A stretch of 64,000 bases of DNA, taken from contig CAADGB010000083.1 of the NCBI GenBank assembly GCA_900696455.1, positions 1-64,000 of the forward strand. The letters run 5' to 3'. The first letter of the stretch is position 1. Each line of letters opens with the position of its first letter. Position numbers and translations under genes: made by a program. Below, one piece after another: positions 38,940 through 49,841 of this stretch. Under the pieces are notes generated by a model. It searched no databases. It had not been told where the DNA came from and worked only from the letters and a program-made list of their open reading frames with translations. This DNA comes from an uncultured delta proteobacterium. GTDB lineage: Bacteria; Myxococcota_A; Polyangia; Haliangiales; Haliangiaceae.

Positions 38940-39860
38940 TCACCATCGCGCCCGGCTCCGACCCACCGCAATACCCAGACCGAACGCGCCCCTCATGCCA
39001 TTCATGTACATGATCTTCCTGAGGATCTGCAGCGCGCGAGGTGGTGAGAGGACCCCGAGGAGTTCGGCGAGCTCCGGGTCCCACGGACGTCGCGAACCGC
39101 GATCACCTAGCAACAGCGCGATCGCACGGTCGACGGCGCCGATCGTGTGCTCGAGGCCCCACTCGCGCGCCAGCCCGGTCACGTCGTCGGCCCTGACACG
39201 TAGCCTCGCCGCATCGACGAAGTTCACCAGCGGAACGCTGAGCTCGTGACGCCCGAGGTGCGCCACATGGAGCAAGTACTCGTCCCCAGGTGCCGCCCGC
39301 AGCGCGCCGGCCACGTGGCTGGGTCGAGCACGACGCCAGAGATCGTCGAGATCGATCCGGCTTCGCCCAGCGTGGACGATATGGCGGTGGAGATCGATCG
39401 CCGCGTCGCGGCGCTTCAGGGTGAGGGCATGATGCGCAGGTGAGCGTTGATGGGGGCCGCCGACGTGCCAGAACCCAATCCGCCGCAGGGCTTTGAACGC
39501 CGCCTCGAACCGGCTCGGCCGCACGAGGAGGTCGATGTCCGACATCGGACGGGCGGCCACGTTGGGGTAGATCGTCCCAGCGTAGGCTACGCCCTTCAGC
39601 AACAGCGGGACGATGCCCTGGCGTGCGAGAGTGTCAACCACCTCTTGCAGCAGCTCCGCTCGCCGATCGGCCTGCACTGCTGACATGACGTGGTCCGAAC
39701 GGAACTGGACCGCACCCGCTTCGTATGCGAGCGGTCCGAGCAGGTGGCGCCGTACGAGCTCACCCGGCAATGCTTGCCATGAGGGCCGGACCGCCGGGGC
39801 CTGATCGAGCATGAGTGCCGCGATCAGCTCCGTCACCGCACGGCGCTCAGCCTCCGTCAT
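38940..39860 (-). CDS. Nucleotidyltransferase of RiPP/PqqD-associated type
   Basis: The 306-residue protein carries the pol-beta-like nucleotidyltransferase signature VPLLLKGVAYAGTIYP followed by RPMSDIDLLVRPSRFEAA, where the Asp pair DID would bind metal. A later ALTLKRRDAAIDLHRHIVHA gives a third acidic residue. It resembles the uncharacterised nucleotidyltransferases found with PqqD-like and HPr-kinase-like genes, including those in kinase-bearing lasso-peptide clusters. The start at MTEAERR (39860) is chosen; two ATGs just upstream (39875, 39878) would overlap the divergent PqqD-like start. Only 16 bases separate the two starts. Confidence 0.85.
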   Translation of the reverse strand: MTEAERRAVTELIAALMLDQAPAVRPSWQALPGELVRRHLLGPLAYEAGAVQFRSDHVMSAVQADRRAELLQEVVDTLARQGIVPLLLKGVAYAGTIYPNVAARPMSDIDLLVRPSRFEAAFKALRRIGFWHVGGPHQRSPAHHALTLKRRDAAIDLHRHIVHAGRSRIDLDDLWRRARPSHVAGALRAAPGDEYLLHVAHLGRHELSVPLVNFVDAARLRVRADDVTGLAREWGLEHTIGAVDRAIALLLGDRGSRRPWDPELAELLGVLSPPRALQILRKIMYMNGMRGAFGLGIAVGRSRARW

Positions 39861-39876
39861 GGCGTATGCTTGCATC

Positions 39877-40146
39877 ATGGCGCGCTACCGGCGAAACCCC
39901 CAGACCGCCGGCCGGATCATCGATGGCCAGGCGTTCGTGGTGACCCCCGGGGACAACAAGCTCCACACGCTGAACGAGACCGCGACCCTGCTCTGGGAGC
40001 TTGCGGCCGGCGGTGTCACGCTCGAGGACGCTGCCCTCGCGTTGTCCCGGGAGTTCGACGTCGAGGCCGAACGAGCGCAGCGAGACGCCGGCCGCTGCTT
40101 CGACGATCTGGTGATGCGCGGGATGATCCTCCTCGAGCAGCCATGA
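39877..40146 (+). CDS. PqqD-like peptide-binding protein (RiPP recognition element)
   Basis: The 89-residue protein matches the PqqD fold: RIIDGQAFVVTPGDNKLHTL, NETATLLWELAAGG, then a helical end (FDDLVMRGMILLEQP). PqqD-type proteins bind the leader of a ribosomal peptide and present it to a modifying enzyme, often a radical SAM enzyme. Both a candidate precursor (49137) and a radical SAM enzyme (44099) are encoded within 10 kb. The ATG at 39877 (MARYRRNPQ) gives the usual length; the frame upstream is not PqqD-like. Its stop overlaps the next start as ATGA. Confidence 0.9.
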   Translation: MARYRRNPQTAGRIIDGQAFVVTPGDNKLHTLNETATLLWELAAGGVTLEDAALALSREFDVEAERAQRDAGRCFDDLVMRGMILLEQP

Positions 40147-40805
40147 GCACCCGCCGTCCCCTGCGGGACGTGGCTGCTGGATACGACGCTGTCGCGGGCA
40201 CCTACGACCGGCGCTACGACGACCGGCGTAGCCGCCGACGGGCCCGCGAGATACAGAGGGTGATGCTGGACGCGGTCCTGGGCGCCGATCGCGTCCTCGA
40301 GGTCGGCGTTGGGACGGGTCGACTCCTCGGCCGCGTCGCGGCGCCGACGCGAATCGGGGTGGACATCGCACCAGCAATGCTCCGGATCGCCGCCGCCCGA
40401 GGTCTCGAGGTGGTCCGCGCTGACGCGCACGCACTCCCGTTCGCGAATGGCTGGTTCGATGCCGTCCTCGCAGCTGGGGGCGTCTTTCGCTACCTCGACC
40501 TCCATCCCGCGTTGATGGAGATGCACCGGATCCTGCGTCCCTCCGGTCGGCTCGCGTTCCACCAGTTCGCGGCCCGCACCTGGACGTTGCGTGGCGCCCC
40601 CCCCCCCGACCCGAGCGTGCACGAGGTTGCTCATGTCGACGAGGTTCGTCACGCCGCGGCGAGCACCGGGTTCGTGGTCGAGAAGATCACGCGCTGGCGA
40701 TCCATCCGCGTGTTCCCGTATCTCGCACCGATCCCGAGCTGGCTCGACCACGTGAGCCCCCGCCCGCTGTGGTCGCATGTCGTGTTCGTGCTCGCGCGCC
40801 GGTGA
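40143..40805 (+). CDS. SAM-dependent methyltransferase
   Basis: The 220-residue class I methyltransferase shows motif I VLEVGVGTGRLLG, then IGVDIAPAMLRIAA, DAHALPFANGWFDAVL and EMHRILRPSGRLAF, the UbiE/type-11 pattern. It is translationally coupled to the PqqD-like gene, so it may methylate the same peptide or a linked sugar; neither is shown. A run of eleven C (40597-40607) lies in the coding sequence and encodes PPP. A change of length there would shift the frame in the last third of the enzyme. The frame is intact as sequenced. Confidence 0.9.
   Translation: MSTRRPLRDVAAGYDAVAGTYDRRYDDRRSRRRAREIQRVMLDAVLGADRVLEVGVGTGRLLGRVAAPTRIGVDIAPAMLRIAAARGLEVVRADAHALPFANGWFDAVLAAGGVFRYLDLHPALMEMHRILRPSGRLAFHQFAARTWTLRGAPPPDPSVHEVAHVDEVRHAAASTGFVVEKITRWRSIRVFPYLAPIPSWLDHVSPRPLWSHVVFVLARR
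40597..40607 (+). repeat. Homopolymer tract of eleven C in the methyltransferase gene
   Basis: Eleven consecutive C bases, in frame as sequenced. Long C tracts in glycan-modification genes can slip during replication and switch expression on and off. They are also common sites of sequencing error. Confidence 0.85.
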
Positions 40806-40815
40806 GCACATCCGG

Positions 40816-41970
40816 TCACCGGCGCGCCGTGTCTCGAACCGCTTCGTGGAAGAGACGGACGCGTTCGATGGTCCTCGAACGGCGGAACTCATGTGCGCGT
40901 GCCCGATTGGCCGCTCCCAGCCGCCAGCGCCGCCCCGGGTCTTCGCCCAGCGCGTCGAGCTCGCGAGCGAGCGACGGCGCATCGCCAACCGGCAGCATCT
41001 CGGTCCCATCGAGGAGTTCGGGGACGCCTCCGACACGAGAAGCGAGGCACGGCAGTCCAACCGCCATCGCCTCCACGAGAGCGCGCGGGAGTCCTTCCGT
41101 TCGCGAGGGAAGCACGAAGATGTCCGCGGAGCGGAGGACCCCGTAGACGGCCTCGCCGGGTGGTAGGGCGCCATGGAACCGGATTCGGTCACGCAAATGA
41201 CGAGCGGTCGCACGGGCTTCGAGGTCCGCGCGGAGCCGCCCGTCTCCGACGACGTCCAGGGTGTGATGTCGCCGGCACTGTGCCACGGCGTCGATGAGCA
41301 CATCGAGCCCCTTGTAGGGTTGCGCCAGGGCGCCCACGAACGCGATCCGCAGGGTTGGACCCTCCGAAATGGCCACAGGTTCCTCGTCGAACACCTCATC
41401 GGGGATCATCGCATCGGAGGCCGCGATCGCCACGCAGCCGGCACGTGGCGGGTACTTGAGCTGCAGGCTCGTCCGCGTGACGAAATGAGCGGCATGGGCT
41501 CGCGCGACCTGGACGCGCTGCAGTGCCGCCCCGACGCCGCGGAACGCACGAAGTACTCGACGATGACCGGCCAGGCTCTCCGCGGGGTCCCCGACCACCT
41601 CGATCCCATATGGGCGACCGCACGCGAACAACATCGCATGGAGCGCGGTCGCCATCACCCCGGGGGCGTGCAGGATGAACGCGTCCCCCGCGAGCTCGGC
41701 CCGGGCCGCTGCGCGGACCAAGGCGGGAAGGTTCCTCGTCAGTCCTTCGGTGCCGACGAAGTCCGGCGCTGCGATCACCGCGACGCCATCACCCTCCACG
41801 GGGCGGGCACCCTCGGGTAACGTGGGCACAGGGCGGACCCTGGCCAGCACGAACACCTGATCGAAGACGTCTCGGTAGCTAGCCCAGTGCGCGTAGTCGA
41901 GCTTGCCGACAACGCGCACCCCGTACGGGGTGCGGAGGTAGTGAGACTCCGCGGTCACGACGACGTTCAC
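40816..41970 (-). CDS. Glycosyltransferase family 4 (GT-B)
   Basis: The 384-residue enzyme starts at GTG (VNVVVTAESHYLRTPYGV) and has the GT4 pattern: LRIAFVGALAQPYKGLDVLI, LRDRIRFHGALPPGEAVYGV and the donor site PSRTEGLPRALVEAMAVGLP with the EX7E Glu pair. The acceptor and sugar are unknown. It converges on the methyltransferase gene with ten bases between, and the next GT4 gene lies 16 bases upstream on the same strand, so the two glycosyltransferases probably share a transcript. Confidence 0.92.
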   Translation of the reverse strand: MNVVVTAESHYLRTPYGVRVVGKLDYAHWASYRDVFDQVFVLARVRPVPTLPEGARPVEGDGVAVIAAPDFVGTEGLTRNLPALVRAAARAELAGDAFILHAPGVMATALHAMLFACGRPYGIEVVGDPAESLAGHRRVLRAFRGVGAALQRVQVARAHAAHFVTRTSLQLKYPPRAGCVAIAASDAMIPDEVFDEEPVAISEGPTLRIAFVGALAQPYKGLDVLIDAVAQCRRHHTLDVVGDGRLRADLEARATARHLRDRIRFHGALPPGEAVYGVLRSADIFVLPSRTEGLPRALVEAMAVGLPCLASRVGGVPELLDGTEMLPVGDAPSLARELDALGEDPGRRWRLGAANRARAHEFRRSRTIERVRLFHEAVRDTARR

Positions 41971-43268: not shown

Positions 43269-44102
43269 GTGGCCGAGGTTCGTTTCCATATCGCCGGTAT
43301 GGCGGTCGCCGTCCGCGGCGAGGCCCGGGCCATCGAAGATCTGGCTCCCGCGTACCTGCGCTTCCCGACCCAGGCGGCCCCCGCCCTGGTCATCGAGATC
43401 GAGCGGGTCGCCGGGTTCGACCGCGTCCAGGGGCCCGAGTACCCGGCGTTCCAGCGGCGGGTCGACGCCGCCGGGCGGTTGCGGGTCGAGCGCTTCGACG
43501 CCGAGGGCGAGATCGAGACCGGCGACCTCCCGCTCGCCGCGCGCTTCCGGGTGGGGCCGTCCGCCAACAGCCTGGAGGCCTGCGTGCGGATCGCGGCGTC
43601 GGTGGCCCTGGCGCGCCACGGCGCCCTCATCCTCCACGCCTCGGCGGTCGAGCACGCCGGCCGGGCCCTGGTGTTCACCGGCGAGAGCGGCGCCGGCAAG
43701 AGCACGATCTCGGCGATGCTCGATCGCGCGCCGGCCCGCAAGATCGGCGACGAGCTGCTGGTGCTGCGACGCGACGCGACCGTCGGGGCCTGGTCGGCGT
43801 ACGTCCCGCCCTACCTGGGGCCGGCGGGGATCGCCCACGGCGCCCAGGCCCCGCTCGACTCGGTCCACCTGCTGGTCCAGGCGCCCCATCACGCCCGGAC
43901 GCTCGTCGGCACCGCGGCCGCGCTGCGCGAGCTGCTCCGCCACGTGCTGGTGTACGTCGCCGAGCCGCGGACCGCCGACCACGTGCTGGCGCTCGCCGCC
44001 GACCTCACCCGCGAGGTGCCATGCTACCGGCTGGAGTTCCGCAAGGATCCGGGCGTCGCCCGGGTGCTGGGAATCGCGTATCCTGGGGCGGCTCCGGCAT
44101 GA
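43269..44102 (+). CDS. HPr-kinase-like P-loop protein (HprK-related)
   Basis: The 277-residue protein has a beta-rich N-terminal part and an HprK-type C-terminal kinase core: HGALILHASAVEHAGRALVF, then Walker A TGESGAGKST at about 138-147, and KIGDELLVL with acidic residues at the second metal site. It lacks the HPr-binding N-terminal domain of true HprK. Such HprK-like proteins recur with PqqD-like proteins and nucleotidyltransferases; in some lasso-peptide clusters the relative phosphorylates the C-terminal Ser of the precursor. The start is GTG. It overlaps the radical SAM gene by four bases. Codon use returns here to the strong GC3 bias of the flanks. Confidence 0.9.
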   Translation: MAEVRFHIAGMAVAVRGEARAIEDLAPAYLRFPTQAAPALVIEIERVAGFDRVQGPEYPAFQRRVDAAGRLRVERFDAEGEIETGDLPLAARFRVGPSANSLEACVRIAASVALARHGALILHASAVEHAGRALVFTGESGAGKSTISAMLDRAPARKIGDELLVLRRDATVGAWSAYVPPYLGPAGIAHGAQAPLDSVHLLVQAPHHARTLVGTAAALRELLRHVLVYVAEPRTADHVLALAADLTREVPCYRLEFRKDPGVARVLGIAYPGAAPA

Positions 44103-45304
44103 GGACCAACCGTGGCGCCGCCGACCTGCTCGCCGCCCGCGCCCAGCGCGAGGGCCGGCCGGTCACGGTCACGTTCCAGGTCACCGACCGCTGCAACTAC
44201 GAGTGCGTCCACTGCTACCAGGAGCACCGCGAGCCGGGCGCGGCCCGGCGCGAGGAGCTTTCGACCGCCGAGATCGTGCGTATCCTCGACGAGCTGGCCG
44301 CCGCCGGGGTCCTGTTCCTCACGATCATGGGCGGCGAGGTCTTCGTCCGCCGCGACGCCGACGAGCTCCTGACCGCCGCCCACGAGCGCGGCTTCGCGCT
44401 CAAGCTGCTCACCACCGGCCACCACGTCCACGACCGGCGCGCCGATCTGCTGGCCACGCTGCGCCCGCTCCAGGTCGAGATGTCGCTGTACGCCGCCGGC
44501 GCCCACGCCCACGAGCAGGTGACCCGCAGCCCGGGCTCGTGGGAGCGCACGGTGGCGGCGGCGCGGCGGCTGATCGAGCGCCGGGTGCCGGTGGTCCTCA
44601 AGTCGCCGGTCATGGAGGTCAACCTCGACGAGCTCGAAGCCCTGGCCCGGCTCGCCGCCGACCTCGGCGCCCAGTACCAGTTCGATCCGAAGATCACCGC
44701 GATCGAGACCGGCGACGAGGCGCCGGTGGCGCTGCGCATGAAGGCCGACGCCCTGCGCCGCTTCTACCACGGCCCGATGCGGGACTACCTGGCCACGACG
44801 TACGGGCCGGGGACGCCGGCGGCGACCGCGCTGGCCGACGGCGCGGAGCTCCGGCCGCTCCACCACACGCCGTGCCGCGCCGGCCAGCAGTCGCTGTCGA
44901 TCTCGCCCTACGGCGAGGTCTGGCCGTGCAACGCGCTGCCGCTGCCGTGCGGCAACCTGCGCCAGCAGTCGTTCGCCGAGATCTGGCGCGGCTCGGCGAC
45001 CCTGGCCGACGTCCGCGACCTGCGCTGGGCGCGGCTCGCCGAGTGCAACGCGTGCGAGCTGCGCGCGTTCTGCCAGCGCTGCCACGGCATGGCCCTGGTC
45101 GAGCAGGGCGACCTCGGCGGGCCATCGCTCGAGGCCTGCCGCCACGCGGTGGCGGTGCGGGACGAGCTGCGCGCGCAGGGCGTGGTCCCCGCCGACCACA
45201 CCGCGCTGCCGCCGACGTGGGACCGGGTCGACCTCGACGGCCAGCACCCGCGCCGCCCCGCCGACGGCAAGCGCCGCCCCGCCGCGCTCCGCATCCTGTC
45301 GTAG
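44099..45304 (+). CDS. Radical SAM/SPASM peptide-modifying enzyme
   Basis: The 401-residue enzyme has the radical SAM triad CNYECVHC (CX3CX2C) at about residues 35-42 after FQVTDR, then ITIMGGEVFVR at the GGE site. A C-terminal SPASM-type domain carries CRAGQQSLSISPYGEVWPC, then LPCGN, and CNACELRAFCQRCHG, with enough Cys for auxiliary FeS clusters. Such enzymes make C-S or C-C crosslinks or epimerise residues in ribosomal peptides. The ATG at 44099 overlaps the HprK-like stop (ATGA). The best substrate candidate is the 52-residue peptide at 49137, which has two Cys near its C-terminus. The kinship to sactionine, ranthipeptide or other subgroups is not resolved. Confidence 0.93.
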   Translation: MRTNRGAADLLAARAQREGRPVTVTFQVTDRCNYECVHCYQEHREPGAARREELSTAEIVRILDELAAAGVLFLTIMGGEVFVRRDADELLTAAHERGFALKLLTTGHHVHDRRADLLATLRPLQVEMSLYAAGAHAHEQVTRSPGSWERTVAAARRLIERRVPVVLKSPVMEVNLDELEALARLAADLGAQYQFDPKITAIETGDEAPVALRMKADALRRFYHGPMRDYLATTYGPGTPAATALADGAELRPLHHTPCRAGQQSLSISPYGEVWPCNALPLPCGNLRQQSFAEIWRGSATLADVRDLRWARLAECNACELRAFCQRCHGMALVEQGDLGGPSLEACRHAVAVRDELRAQGVVPADHTALPPTWDRVDLDGQHPRRPADGKRRPAALRILS

Positions 45305-45375: not shown

Positions 45376-48300
45376 ATGATCACCACCATGCTTGGCCGGG
45401 GCCTGCGTCGGGGGACGCGGGCGCTCGCCGCCCTCGGCGCGCTGGCCGCCCTCCTCCCCGCCTGCGGCGACGGCCCCGTCTGCCAGACCGAGGCCCTGGT
45501 CTTCATCGTCGAGCCCTCGGGCCTGGTCAGCGGCGACAGCAACGCCACGATCGCCGGGGTCCAGACCGACGTCGAGGTCCGCAGCACCTTCGGCCGCGAC
45601 GCGACCCTGACCCTCACCGTCGAGGACGAGGACGGTCGCGTGCTCGAGACCGCGACCGCCACCACCGACGAGCAGGGCAACGCCACGTTCGCCGACGTCA
45701 CGATCCCGCCCGGCGGCGCCGAGCTCCGCGTCCGCGGCGACGCCGGCGAGTGCGGCCGCGACGAGGACGTCCGCCACGTCGAGATCGGCGGCGGCGGCGA
45801 CTGCCAGCTCGAGTTCGCGATCGCGCCCGAGCCCAGCTCGTATTACGCGCCGCTCGACGTCTTCAACCGCAGCAGCGACGCCAGCGCCGCCCTCCCCGGC
45901 CACCAGGGCGACGTGATCATCCGGACCGCGGCCGGTCACCAGGTCAAGCTCTACCTGTCCGGGCCGGGGGTGGTCGAGACCGAGATCGGCGCCGGCACCG
46001 CCGACGAGGACGGCGAGCTGCGCCTCGCCGTCAGCCTGCCCGAGGGGCAGGACAACCTGCGGGTCGAGTGCGCTGGGCCCGGCGCCGGCCCGCGCTCGTC
46101 GGGCGTGGTCTCGGTCTACGTCGACACCGTGGCGCCGAGCTGCGCCATCACCGCGCCGCTGCCCGGCACCAGCCTGACCCCCAGCCTCGACGCCGACCAG
46201 GATCTCGGCAACGGCCTCCAGCTCACGCTGGTCGCCTCGGCCGGCGGCGGCGACACCGAGGGCGAGGGCGCCCAGTTCGTCATCACCGCGCCCGGCGGCG
46301 GCCAGACCACGCTCACCGGGACGGCGGTGAGCGGGGCCGGCGTGTCCAGCGCCGCCGCCACCTTCGACCCCGCCACCACCCCCGCCGACTTCGGCGTCGC
46401 GTTCTCGACGATCGACCACGCCGGCAACCCGTGCGCGGTGGCCGAGACCTATCGCGTGGTCTACGGCGGCTGCCCCATCGTCGTCACCGCCCCGACCGGG
46501 CCGGTCACCGCCGACGCCGACGCCGACGGCAGCAACGGCGCGCAGGTCGACGTCGTGCTCGACGTCGACCCGGCCTGCGTCGGTCGCACCGTGACCTCGG
46601 ACTGCGGCAGCAACGACCCGGGCGGCACCGTCGGCGCCGGCGGCGCCCTGACCCTGCGGGCCGACGTGTGCGACGCCGTGCCCTGCGAGACCTCCGAGGT
46701 CTGCACGGTGCGGGTCACCAGCAGCGACGGCATCGAGACCACCGCCGGCGTGAGCCTCGTGTTCGACAACCAGCCGCCGAGCGTGGCGGTCCAGGTGGCG
46801 GCGCCGAGCGGGACGCCGTGCGGCGGGACGGTGACGCCCGAGCAGGACCAGAGCCTGGCCACCCCCGGCACCCAGATCCGCATGCGCGTGGTGTCGCCCG
46901 GCGCCGCCAGCCGCGAGCTCCAGCTCACGAACACGAGCGGCACCGCCACCTTCGACGCCAGCGCCGTCGGCGGCGAGGTCCTGGTCACGGTCGAGAGCGG
47001 GGCCAACGACTTCGTCGGCCTCGCCCGCGACGCCCTCGGCAACACCGCCAGCACGCCGGTGTGCCGCATCCGCCTGGCCGATCTGATCGTCACCTTCACC
47101 GGGGCGGCGGCCGACGGCACGGTCGGCGCGGCCGACGGCGCGGTCGCCGGCACCGACCTCACCTTCACCCTCACCGGCACGGTCTCGACCGCGGGCGCCA
47201 GCGTGTCGATCTCGGTCGACGGCGGCGCCGCGCTGCCGGCGGTGGTGTCCGGGACGAGCTGGAGCCGGGTCCTGACGCTGGCCGAGCGCGCCGCGCCGTA
47301 CGACGTCGTGGCCAGCGCCAGCGCCGGGCCGCTGATGGGCCAGGCCAGCCTCGCCCTCACCGTCGACCTGACCGGCCCCGACCCGGTGAGCGATCTGACC
47401 GCGGTCGCCGACACCCGCCACTCGGTCCGGCTCGCCTTCACCGCGCCGTCGGACGGCGCCGGCGGCGCCGGGGCCGGGTACCGCGTCCGCTACGCGACGG
47501 TCGCGCTCACCGACGGCAACTTCGACACCACCGGGCTCCCGGCGCCCGCGCCGGCGCCCGCCGCGCCCGGGACCGCCGAGCGCCTCCGGGTCACGCCGCT
47601 GCGCACCGGCACCGCGTTCTGGGTCGGCGTCGCCGCGGTCGACGCCTCCGGCAACCGGGCGCCGGCGGCCATCGTCGGCCCCCTGACCCCGCGCTTCGAT
47701 CAGACCGCGGCCTACGCCGCGCCCAGCACCGACGGCAACGCCCAGCTCGGCTACGCCGTCGCCCGCGGTCGCTTCAACGACGACGAGTTCGAGGACCTGG
47801 CGGTGGCGGCGCCGTTCGCCGACGTCGGCGGCGTCACCGGCGCCGGCCAGGTCCACGTCTACTTCGGCTCGGCCACCGGCCTGGCGACGGCACCCGGCCT
47901 GACCATCAACGGCGCGACCGCCGCCGGCGGGTTCGGCTCCTCGCTGGCGGCGGTCCGCTGGAGCACGACGAGTCGCCACGACCTGGCGATCGGCGAGCCC
48001 TTCGCCGACGGCGGCAGCGGCGCGATCCACGTCTTCGACGGCGGGGCCGCCCTGCCGACCGGGACCGTCGCCGCCACCGCCGCCCCGCGCCGGATCCAGG
48101 TCGCCGCCGCCGCCAACTGGTTCACCGGCTCGGCCCTGGGCTGGCAGCTCGCGCGCGCCGACCACGACGGCGACGGCGTCGACGACCTGGTGGCGACCGC
48201 GATCTTCGGCAGCGGCGGCGCGGCCGGCGCCGCCGTCGTCTTCTACGGCGGCACCGTGCCCACGGGCATCGTCCGGATCTCGGACACGAGCAGCGGCGGC

Positions 48301-49116
48301 AGCGGCACGGCGGTGATGCGGATGTACGAGCAGGGCGGGGGCGCGCTGTTCGGCTTCTACCTCCACAACCTGGGCCGGACCCAGGGCGCGGCCGACCTCG
48401 CCGACGATCTCGGCGTGGCCTTCGCCGAGGACGGCGTCGCCGGGGCCGACGTGCTCGTCCTGCGCGCCACCTCGGGGCGGCCGGCGACCTCTGGCGTCAA
48501 CCGCTTGCCGTTCACGGTCGGGCGCGACGTGCGCATCCGCCATGTGACGATCGACACCATGCTCGAGTGGGGCTCGGCGATGGGCTCGATCGCCGACCAG
48601 AACGGCGACGGCGCCCGCGACATCGTGATCGGCGACTACCGCGACCTGGGCGACAACGGAGTAGTGTTCATCATCGACGGCAACACGCTGGGGACGGGCG
48701 GCATCGCAACGACGACCGACCCTAGCGTCGTGCTGACCACGCTGCGCGAGACCACGAACGGCCGCCACTTCGGCATGGCCGTGGTCAACAACGCCACGAT
48801 CGCCGATGCCGACGTCGACGGCGACGGGATCGAGGATCTGATCGTGGCCGGCCGGGCGCCCGGGGTGGCCCAGGCCCAGCTCCAGGTCTGGTTCGGACCG
48901 CTCCCTCGGGGTCTGCAGTCCCCGCCGGCCCCCGACCACCGCATCGACGGCCCGGCGAGCTTCACCGGCGCGGTCCCGGCCAACGGCGGCTCCCCGATCT
49001 CCGCGATCTGGGCCGGTGACGTGAACGGGGACGGCCTGGATGACGTCTGTTGGGCTGACTGGAACAGCGCCAGCCGCGACGGCGGCTTCCAGATGCTGTT
49101 CGACGACGGCCAGTGA
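45376..49116 (+). CDS. Large surface lipoprotein with Ig/FN3-like and FG-GAP repeat domains
   Basis: The 1246-residue protein has a lipoprotein signal (MITTMLGRGLRRG...LLPAC). The first 650 residues or so form repeated Ig-like or CARDB-like beta domains (YVDTVAPSCAITAPLPGTSL) with many Cys. A fibronectin III-like unit follows (DLTAVADTRHSVRLAFTAPS). The last 450 residues carry FG-GAP/integrin-alpha-like repeats (FNDDEFEDLAVAAPFADVGG, DHDGDGVDDLVATAIFGSGG, DVDGDGIEDLIVAGRAP). It is probably exposed at the cell surface. It sits 20 bases before the candidate precursor gene, so the two may share a transcript. It starts 71 bases after the radical SAM gene. Confidence 0.92.
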   Translation: MITTMLGRGLRRGTRALAALGALAALLPACGDGPVCQTEALVFIVEPSGLVSGDSNATIAGVQTDVEVRSTFGRDATLTLTVEDEDGRVLETATATTDEQGNATFADVTIPPGGAELRVRGDAGECGRDEDVRHVEIGGGGDCQLEFAIAPEPSSYYAPLDVFNRSSDASAALPGHQGDVIIRTAAGHQVKLYLSGPGVVETEIGAGTADEDGELRLAVSLPEGQDNLRVECAGPGAGPRSSGVVSVYVDTVAPSCAITAPLPGTSLTPSLDADQDLGNGLQLTLVASAGGGDTEGEGAQFVITAPGGGQTTLTGTAVSGAGVSSAAATFDPATTPADFGVAFSTIDHAGNPCAVAETYRVVYGGCPIVVTAPTGPVTADADADGSNGAQVDVVLDVDPACVGRTVTSDCGSNDPGGTVGAGGALTLRADVCDAVPCETSEVCTVRVTSSDGIETTAGVSLVFDNQPPSVAVQVAAPSGTPCGGTVTPEQDQSLATPGTQIRMRVVSPGAASRELQLTNTSGTATFDASAVGGEVLVTVESGANDFVGLARDALGNTASTPVCRIRLADLIVTFTGAAADGTVGAADGAVAGTDLTFTLTGTVSTAGASVSISVDGGAALPAVVSGTSWSRVLTLAERAAPYDVVASASAGPLMGQASLALTVDLTGPDPVSDLTAVADTRHSVRLAFTAPSDGAGGAGAGYRVRYATVALTDGNFDTTGLPAPAPAPAAPGTAERLRVTPLRTGTAFWVGVAAVDASGNRAPAAIVGPLTPRFDQTAAYAAPSTDGNAQLGYAVARGRFNDDEFEDLAVAAPFADVGGVTGAGQVHVYFGSATGLATAPGLTINGATAAGGFGSSLAAVRWSTTSRHDLAIGEPFADGGSGAIHVFDGGAALPTGTVAATAAPRRIQVAAAANWFTGSALGWQLARADHDGDGVDDLVATAIFGSGGAAGAAVVFYGGTVPTGIVRISDTSSGGSGTAVMRMYEQGGGALFGFYLHNLGRTQGAADLADDLGVAFAEDGVAGADVLVLRATSGRPATSGVNRLPFTVGRDVRIRHVTIDTMLEWGSAMGSIADQNGDGARDIVIGDYRDLGDNGVVFIIDGNTLGTGGIATTTDPSVVLTTLRETTNGRHFGMAVVNNATIADADVDGDGIEDLIVAGRAPGVAQAQLQVWFGPLPRGLQSPPAPDHRIDGPASFTGAVPANGGSPISAIWAGDVNGDGLDDVCWADWNSASRDGGFQMLFDDGQ

Positions 49117-49124
49117 TCTGGTAA

Positions 49125-49139
49125 GGTAGGAGAACCATG
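49125..49139 (+). promoter_or_regulatory. Strong ribosome binding site of the small peptide gene
   Basis: AGGAG (49128-49132 region) lies about four to five bases before the ATG at 49137, a near-perfect site where most genes here have weak ones. It supports strong translation of a short peptide. Confidence 0.6.
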
Positions 49140-49295
49140 AGCGAACCGAAGCAGGACCCGCCGCGGATCGAGCGCCCCCGCAAGCCGTACGAGCCGCCGG
49201 CGGTCATCTCGGACGAGGTCTTCGAGACCCTGGCGCTATCGTGTGGCAAGGCCAACGCCTTCGTGTGCCCGGGCGGCAACCCGAACCGGTCCTGA
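49137..49295 (+). CDS. Candidate RiPP precursor peptide (52 residues)
   Basis: The 52-codon frame has a strong ribosome site and a leader/core layout. Residues 1-17 are Pro/Arg/Lys-rich. Residues 18-29 (YEPPAVISDEVF) contain a YxxPxV...F pattern like the leaders bound by PqqD/RRE proteins. A helical FETLALS follows, and the last 18 residues (CGKANAFVCPGGNPNRS, preceded by S35) hold Cys36 and Cys44 and end in Ser52. It is preceded by a lipoprotein gene and followed by an S26-like peptidase gene. PqqD-like, radical SAM, HprK-like, nucleotidyltransferase and methyltransferase genes lie within 10 kb. A Cys crosslink by the radical SAM enzyme and a change at the terminal Ser by the kinase-like protein are inferences. 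I do not recognise a named precursor family. Confidence 0.75.
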   Translation: MSEPKQDPPRIERPRKPYEPPAVISDEVFETLALSCGKANAFVCPGGNPNRS

Positions 49296-49388: not shown

Positions 49389-49841
49389 ATGGCCTTCCTC
49401 TTCCCCGACCACGCCCTGCCGCCGGCGGTCCGCGCCCGGGTCGCGCTCCTGCGCGACCGCGCCGCCGGCCCGGACGGGCTCGTGACCACCTGCGGCGGGG
49501 TGTCCATGGAGCCGGCCATCCGCCGGGGCGACCCGGTCACCGTGCGCGCGCGCGCCCCCCGGGCCGGCGCGGTCGCCGCGTTCGTCACCACCCGCGGCGA
49601 GCTCGAGCTGCACCGGCTGGTGGCGGCGGCGCCCGGCGGCTGGTGGGCCCACCTCGGCGACAACCAGATCGATCCGTCGCCCGGCCTCGTCCACGCCACC
49701 CAGGTGATCGGCCTCGCCGAGGTCGCCGCCCGCGCCCCCGGTGTGCGGGCGCGGGCTCGCGCTCTGGTGCGGCTGGCCCGCGCCGCGGCGCGCGTGGCAG
49801 CTCGGGCCGCGCGGCAGCCGGGCGCCCGACCGCACCGCTAG
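49389..49841 (+). CDS. S26-family (S26B-like) signal-peptidase-type serine protease
   Basis: The 150-residue protein has the catalytic Ser motif GVSMEPAIRRGDPV and then ELELHRLVAAAPGGWWAHLGDN. His stands where the general-base Lys of bacterial LepB is found, as in the S26B (SipW/ER type) group that uses a Ser/His pair. No clear N-terminal membrane helix is visible, so it may act in the cytoplasm. Lying 93 bases after the small peptide gene, it is the best candidate for removing a leader. The start is ATG at 49389, directly after an in-frame GTG. Confidence 0.85.
   Translation: MAFLFPDHALPPAVRARVALLRDRAAGPDGLVTTCGGVSMEPAIRRGDPVTVRARAPRAGAVAAFVTTRGELELHRLVAAAPGGWWAHLGDNQIDPSPGLVHATQVIGLAEVAARAPGVRARARALVRLARAAARVAARAARQPGARPHR

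Follow-up and report, generated by a model that had tools for sequence, protein, structure and literature searches.

Introduction

An open reading frame of 52 codons, lying within a polysaccharide locus of an uncultured delta proteobacterium and surrounded by genes for peptide-modifying enzymes, raises the question of whether a modified peptide is made from its product and, if so, of what kind. It was found in a stretch of 64,000 nucleotides of contig CAADGB010000083.1, here called the window. The original prediction took it for part of an uncharacterised RiPP system: a short gene with a strong ribosome-binding site, a leader-like YxxPxV...F segment and a Cys-containing C-terminus, accompanied by a set of enzymes that could act on it. 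We find a conserved and selected precursor gene. Across the phylum its linked neighbours encode a PqqD-type leader-binding protein (RRE), a kinase of HprK/PEPCK fold, a radical SAM/SPASM enzyme and an S26 peptidase, and what they form is very probably a myxobacterial RiPP biosynthetic module. Beyond what had been predicted, the analysis adds a likely FG-GAP lipoprotein, the C-terminal Ser, a small-x-small site before the first core Cys and a relation to the linear polyphosphorylated peptides (LPP), described from Bacillota in 2026 (PMC13381572).

The precursor gene and its surroundings

The short gene and its ribosome-binding site are where they were expected (Table 1), and the residues that had been named, Y18, P21, V23, F29, C36 and C44, are all in place. 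The ATG follows the stop codon of the FG-GAP gene by 20 nt, and the S26-like gene starts 93 nt 3' of the peptide gene. Comparison of the window peptide with its three closest homologues gives dN of 0.12-0.19 and dS of 0.66-1.17 (dN/dS about 0.17-0.25); with dN so low relative to dS, the frame behaves as a translated and selected protein, and it is a real gene under purifying selection. An alignment of ten peptide members from the order has 11 invariant columns, and searches of Pfam and NCBIfam with the window peptide and seven relatives matched no family.

Table 1. Features of the precursor locus, in window coordinates
Feature	Position	Strand	Basis
Nucleotidyltransferase PF14907, divergent from PqqD gene	38940..39860	-	PF14907 7.5e-32
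PqqD-family leader-binding protein (RRE)	39877..40146	+	PF05402 3.6e-14
Class I SAM methyltransferase, 4-nt overlap with PqqD gene	40143..40805	+	PF08241 8.3e-16; syntenic in same-family relatives
GT4 glycosyltransferase, first of two	40816-41970	-	Pfam/NCBIfam
GT4 glycosyltransferase, second of two	41987 to about 43150	-	Pfam/NCBIfam; start read from sequence
HprK/PEPCK-fold Ser kinase (H113, K134, D151, acidic 152)	43299..44102	+	AlphaFold model, Foldseek; motif
Radical SAM/SPASM enzyme, 4-nt overlap with kinase gene	44099..45304	+	PF04055 3.5e-20; PF13186 7.7e-13
FG-GAP beta-propeller protein, 1246 aa, likely lipoprotein	45376..49116	+	PF01839 1.2e-6; model, integrin-alpha fold match; adjacency
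AGGAG ribosome-binding site, 4 nt 5' of ATG	49128..49132	+	Sequence
Precursor peptide gene, 52 aa	49137..49295	+	ORF translation MSEPKQDPPRIERPRKPYEPPAVISDEVFETLALSCGKANAFVCPGGNPNRS; homologues; dN/dS
Y18xxP21xV23 leader motif, expected PqqD/RRE binding	49188..49205	+	Alignment conservation; RRE motif in PMC13381572
Predicted core C36-S52 CGKANAFVCPGGNPNRS	49242..49292	+	Small residues before conserved Cys; predicted S35/C36 cut
Ser52, C-terminal, predicted phosphorylation site of HprK-like kinase	49290..49292	+	Terminal-Ser counts; predicted site
S26 signal-peptidase-like protease (S39, H75, D91)	49389..49841	+	Weak TIGR02228 6.8e-4 (archaeal-type signal peptidase); family conservation

The neighbours on which the prediction relied are real. 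Pfam recognises the PqqD protein, the radical SAM/SPASM enzyme, the nucleotidyltransferase and the methyltransferase, and the S26-like and HprK-like proteins, which give weak NCBIfam signals, are borne out by a conserved Ser/His/Asp set and by a modelled kinase fold, respectively. In the window two GT4 genes separate the methyltransferase gene from the kinase gene, a gap that measures <0.2 kb at loci L036 and L038; the PF14907 nucleotidyltransferase is also present at these two loci and at L174. The remainder of the region belongs to a polysaccharide locus, with genes for a Wzz-like protein, a bacterial sugar transferase, a member of a polysaccharide flippase family and a DegT aminotransferase. 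Among the annotated genes around the peptide, none was recognised as coding for an exporter or for immunity. It had also been claimed that the locus lacks an asparagine-synthetase-like cyclase and is not a normal lasso cluster; indeed neither this cyclase (PF00733) nor the lasso B2 protease (PF13471) has a match on the window's contig, the genome's matches lying on other contigs.

Distribution and gene order

A contig scan with the window peptide alone returned only two close relatives; genome searches, above all those with alignments, were far more sensitive. By tblastn the peptide occurs in 11 of the 35 genomes of the order, the window's own included, and the other loci of the order that were read carry the kinase, radical SAM, FG-GAP and peptide genes in this sequence, as far as the contig extends. 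Kinase and peptide are found together in 11 genomes, the kinase only in three, the peptide only in none and neither in 21 (Fisher p = 9e-7, relatedness not corrected). The module's contig ends within the FG-GAP gene in two of the kinase-only genomes (G024 and G019), and the third (G020) has a partial kinase match only. Two weak matches of the order search (L042, L043) were dismissed as chance, as the module proteins are unmatched there.

The homologous small gene whose absence beside these enzymes in relatives would have counted against the original prediction is in fact widespread. Of the 379 genomes searched in the phylum, 62 hold the leader family by a 28-sequence profile (51 by the first profile used), in four gene orders. 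Neighbours were scored with purpose-made profiles at 64 loci, where many absences are contig ends; L157, L158 and L160, whose frames are not short peptides, and L152, on a 3.3-kb contig, were left out of the statistics. The HprK-like kinase is present at 59 of these loci, the radical SAM/SPASM enzyme at 55, the S26 peptidase at 47, the PqqD-type protein at 45, a PF14907-type gene at 14 and a methyltransferase at 12. At L144 no kinase was found within the roughly 10 kb examined on each side. This recurrence of kinase, RRE, radical SAM and S26 genes beside a conserved precursor upholds the proposal of an uncharacterised RiPP system.

Gene order A runs kinase-PqqD-rSAM-FG-GAP-peptide, often with S26 next, and order B runs PqqD-FG-GAP-peptide-kinase-rSAM-S26. 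The other two are without FG-GAP: order C is S26-kinase-PqqD-rSAM-peptide followed by PF14907, and order D is peptide-kinase-PqqD-rSAM with S26, where found, farther downstream. At two loci (L075, L076) the module adjoins ATP-synthase genes, as read from the open reading frames, so the linkage is not merely shared polysaccharide synteny. Local variants include a kinase-to-PqqD spacing about 0.6 kb above that of the other order-A loci (L138, L140, L148), upstream of the kinase, an ORF for about 450-475 aa whose product carries cyclic-nucleotide-binding domains (L074, L080, L084) and, at one distant locus, a B12-binding radical SAM protein between peptide and kinase (L078:10141-12381:+).

The adjoining FG-GAP protein

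The FG-GAP protein is likely a lipoprotein, judging by a hydrophobic N-terminus that is followed by Cys30 (LLPAC, residues 26-30). Its C-terminal 530 aa were modelled with a pLDDT of 89.1 and matched integrin alpha propellers; no full-length paralogue was found in the window's own genome. The gene belongs to a conserved block with the peptide gene, which it adjoins in about two thirds of the loci (45/64 by motif regex; Pfam was positive for nine of ten such ORFs, that of L076 being the exception). Orthologues without kinase, radical SAM or peptide genes alongside occur in related genomes of other genera. At four such loci (L164, L165, L166, L172) a DegT gene comes after the FG-GAP gene, and in the window DegT comes after the module. 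Judging by these module-free orthologues, the FG-GAP gene was resident and the module came or went around it, and the protein serves some function even where the peptide is absent. One genome, G024, holds two orthologues, of which a single one is accompanied by the module (L168, L169).

The suggestion that the peptide is tied to the cell surface finds indirect support. The polysaccharide locus and the predicted surface lipoprotein next door speak for it, but some distant modules, such as the two beside ATP-synthase genes, lie in other settings.

The enzymes

The kinase is weakly HprK_rel_A-like (TIGR04352 3e-9, below the cut-off). As a PDB sequence search with it gave generic P-loop matches only, its fold was predicted by model instead: the AlphaFold model has a mean pLDDT of 89.7, and Foldseek matched it to PEPCK and then to HPr kinase, which have a common fold. 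Within the kinase family H113 and K134 are each present in 58/58 sequences and D151 in 47/58, and position 152 is acidic in 58/58. PadeK-type kinases carry a His-Lys-Asp-Asp motif, and PadeK and ThcoK phosphorylate a C-terminal Ser (PMC9266682).

The radical SAM family has CX3CX2C in 55/55 members together with seven conserved Cys in the SPASM region. The nearest solved structures by sequence are SkfB, a sactisynthase and the best match, and PqqE, and in NCBIfam the enzyme scores among PqqE- and MftC-like SPASM enzymes. In the S26 family position 39 is Ser in 43/48 and Cys in 5/48, H75 is found in 48/48 and D91 in 46/48, and these three residues correspond to S29, H68 and D93 of LppS; the catalytic Ser is replaced by Cys in S26 proteins of gene order C (L088, L093, L128, L156). 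For the PqqD protein the nearest NCBIfam model is lasso_PqqD_Strm (2.2e-6, below the cut-off), and a structure-database search returned mostly designed or repeat proteins, the relevant matches, to TfuB1 (6jx3_B) and 9x8z_B, being weak.

Leader, core and candidate cleavage sites

The conserved leader and variable core that had been anticipated are both seen in the family alignments. Among 61 family peptides aligned on the first core Cys, the leader residues that stand out are Y (43/61), P (46/61), F (36/61) and E (44/61). Before that Cys, A, G, S, T or C occupies position -1 in 95% of the peptides and position -3 in 82%, and 40/61 have Leu at -2; small-x-small is the pattern of signal-peptidase-I sites, and such a site precedes Cys36 in the window peptide. 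The core has at least two Cys in 62 of 64 peptides, and Tyr, Trp and His are scarce (in 12%, 5% and 2%, respectively). Ser is the last residue in 44/64 peptides, or 30/48 after removal of redundancy, and the background from 485 ORFs is 8.9% (binomial p 4e-20 for the enrichment, relatedness ignored). Fifteen of the 64 end in neither Ser nor Thr, and since a kinase accompanies most of these too, they may be phosphorylated at another site.

Two positions for the removal of the leader come into question. Cys36 lies at +18 from the Y of YxxP, the commonest offset in the family (46/64); lasso cores begin at +17, as in lariatin. A cut after FET31 would put the start of the core at +14, and LPP cores begin at +16, by motif (PMC13381572). 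The LPP precursor has the motif YxxPxVLxHQxIxFETxxS, is cut after FET and bears phosphate on core Ser3 (PMC13381572). As FET29-31 is present in the window peptide, its cut may likewise fall after Thr31, a position where many family members have Arg, Ala or Gln. On these sequence patterns we favour, with reasonable confidence, a predicted cut before Cys36; one after FET31 seems unlikely, and one elsewhere less likely still.

A proposed pathway and its alternatives

In the pathway that we propose, the PqqD protein would bind the YxxPxV leader and bring the precursor to its enzymes. The core would be modified by the SPASM enzyme, most likely at Cys36 and Cys44, and the kinase would phosphorylate the C-terminal Ser52, to whose phosphate the PF14907 nucleotidyltransferase may add. 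The S26 protease would remove the leader, most likely between S35 and C36, to leave a 17-residue peptide. Its site of action is probably the cell surface, in concert with the neighbouring FG-GAP lipoprotein, but of all the steps we are least sure of this one. As a whole, that is a RiPP module with PqqD presentation, SPASM modification, Ser52 phosphorylation, S26 cleavage and a surface role, we hold the model to be likely. Phosphorylation of Ser52 by the HprK-like kinase, proposed by analogy with its characterised relatives, is fairly probable, and action of the radical SAM enzyme at Cys of the core is slightly more likely than not. That the peptide functions together with the FG-GAP protein is put forward tentatively. 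We speculate further, and regard it as rather unlikely, that this is a RiPP class new to the literature searched: radical SAM-modified, C-terminally phosphorylated and perhaps phosphoglycosylated, serving a giant integrin-like surface lipoprotein as partner or as decoration, with a structural or adhesive and not an antibiotic role.

The SkfB match and the conserved Cys within a variable core would also suit a secreted antibacterial bacteriocin, sactipeptide- or ranthipeptide-like, whose thioether-bridged core hits competitors and beside which the FG-GAP gene is an unrelated neighbour. This is unlikely in view of an HprK-like kinase gene at 59/64 loci and of the C-terminal Ser, which to our knowledge are not part of sactipeptide systems, of the FG-GAP adjacency in two gene orders and many families, and of the absence of any recognised exporter or immunity gene among those annotated near the peptide. 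The kinship of the radical SAM enzyme with PqqE and MftC, the presence of PqqD and a propeller protein as possible partner bring to mind the precursor of a small redox cofactor or an enzyme's peptide subunit, as for PQQ, mycofactocin or quinohemoprotein amine dehydrogenase. However, Tyr and Trp take part in the chemistry of PQQ and mycofactocin, and the cores vary widely and are mostly without either residue, so that PqqE- or mycofactocin-like Tyr chemistry is disfavoured; with no module-tied dehydrogenase recognised either, this reading is quite improbable.

If the product were simply a linear phosphopeptide of LPP type, with the cut after FET31 and the radical SAM enzyme acting on something else, this would account for a kinase, RRE, S26 protease and nucleotidyltransferase that all match the LPP set and for the FET in common. 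Yet the radical SAM gene is among the most constant neighbours and overlaps the kinase gene in the window, FET stands nearer YxxP by two residues than it does in LPP, and many members do not keep the Thr at position 31; we consider this reading distinctly unlikely. The YxxPxV spacing is also lasso-like and the PqqD protein is nearest to a lasso RRE model, though below its cut-off, which could point to a lasso peptide that relies on a cyclase gene in another part of the genome. The window peptide has no Asp or Glu at core positions 7-9, where the ring would close, and the cyclase and B2 protease matches lie only on other contigs; this highly improbable reading was rejected.

If the proposed pathway is true, radical SAM modification and HprK-type serine phosphorylation would be joined on one short peptide, in a family that ranges across a phylum with abundant natural products and offers about 60 precursors with variable cores for testing. 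The roles of paeninodin and LPP are stated to be unknown (PMC13381572); the link to a propeller lipoprotein and the polysaccharide locus of the window would make the function of phosphorylated RiPPs testable.

Comparison with known systems

No system combining kinase, radical SAM enzyme and RRE in myxobacteria was described in the literature searched, whose coverage left subscription journals largely outside, and a text search of an RRE discovery study (PMC12710340) found HprK, kinase, nucleotidyltransferase and S26 unmentioned. The HPr-rel-A and SynChlorMet (Scm) cassettes of NCBIfam likewise pair an HprK-related kinase with a PqqD-like protein, and Scm also has SPASM enzymes, but the window proteins score far below the models of both: 36.4 and 24.1 bits against cut-offs of 200 and 35 for TIGR04352 and TIGR04353, and 32.0, 18.9 and 103.3 bits against 125, 100 and 400 for ScmC, ScmD and ScmE. 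Sactipeptide maturases such as SkfB likewise have the radical SAM/SPASM architecture and substrates with Cys in the core; the module is set apart by a PqqD protein that is separate, by its HprK-like kinase and S26 peptidase and by the FG-GAP partner. Paeninodin-type lasso systems (PadeK/ThcoK; PMC9266682) have in common with it an HprK-like kinase with His-Lys-Asp-(Asp/Glu), a C-terminal Ser, an RRE and the leader spacing, whereas the macrolactam cyclase and B2 protease are unmatched on the window's contig and S26 and radical SAM enzymes stand in their place.

The closest described system is LPP, whose genes encode the SipW-like S26 peptidase LppS, the RRE LppB, the HprK-like kinase LppK, an NTP transferase and an MsbA-like exporter and lie in polysaccharide loci (PMC13381572). 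The window module resembles it in its HprK-like kinase (by fold and motif), its discrete PqqD-type RRE, its SipW-like S26 peptidase with Ser/His/Asp, its YxxPxV leader, the F-E-T of its precursor, its polysaccharide-locus setting and the lack of a lasso cyclase; the NTP transferase has its counterpart in PF14907, present in the window and at just 14/64 loci of the wider family. Unlike LPP, for which neither a radical SAM enzyme nor an FG-GAP protein is described (PMC13381572), it has a radical SAM/SPASM enzyme, a conserved Cys pair and the likely FG-GAP lipoprotein. Its host phylum is myxobacterial, no MsbA-like exporter was recognised among those window genes searched against Pfam, and the likely site of phosphorylation is the C-terminal Ser instead of core Ser3. 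The window peptide does not match the LPP precursor motif, as HQxI is absent and FET is shifted; together with the additional radical SAM enzyme this places the module outside LPP. By analogy, it would nevertheless work like the LPP and paeninodin systems.
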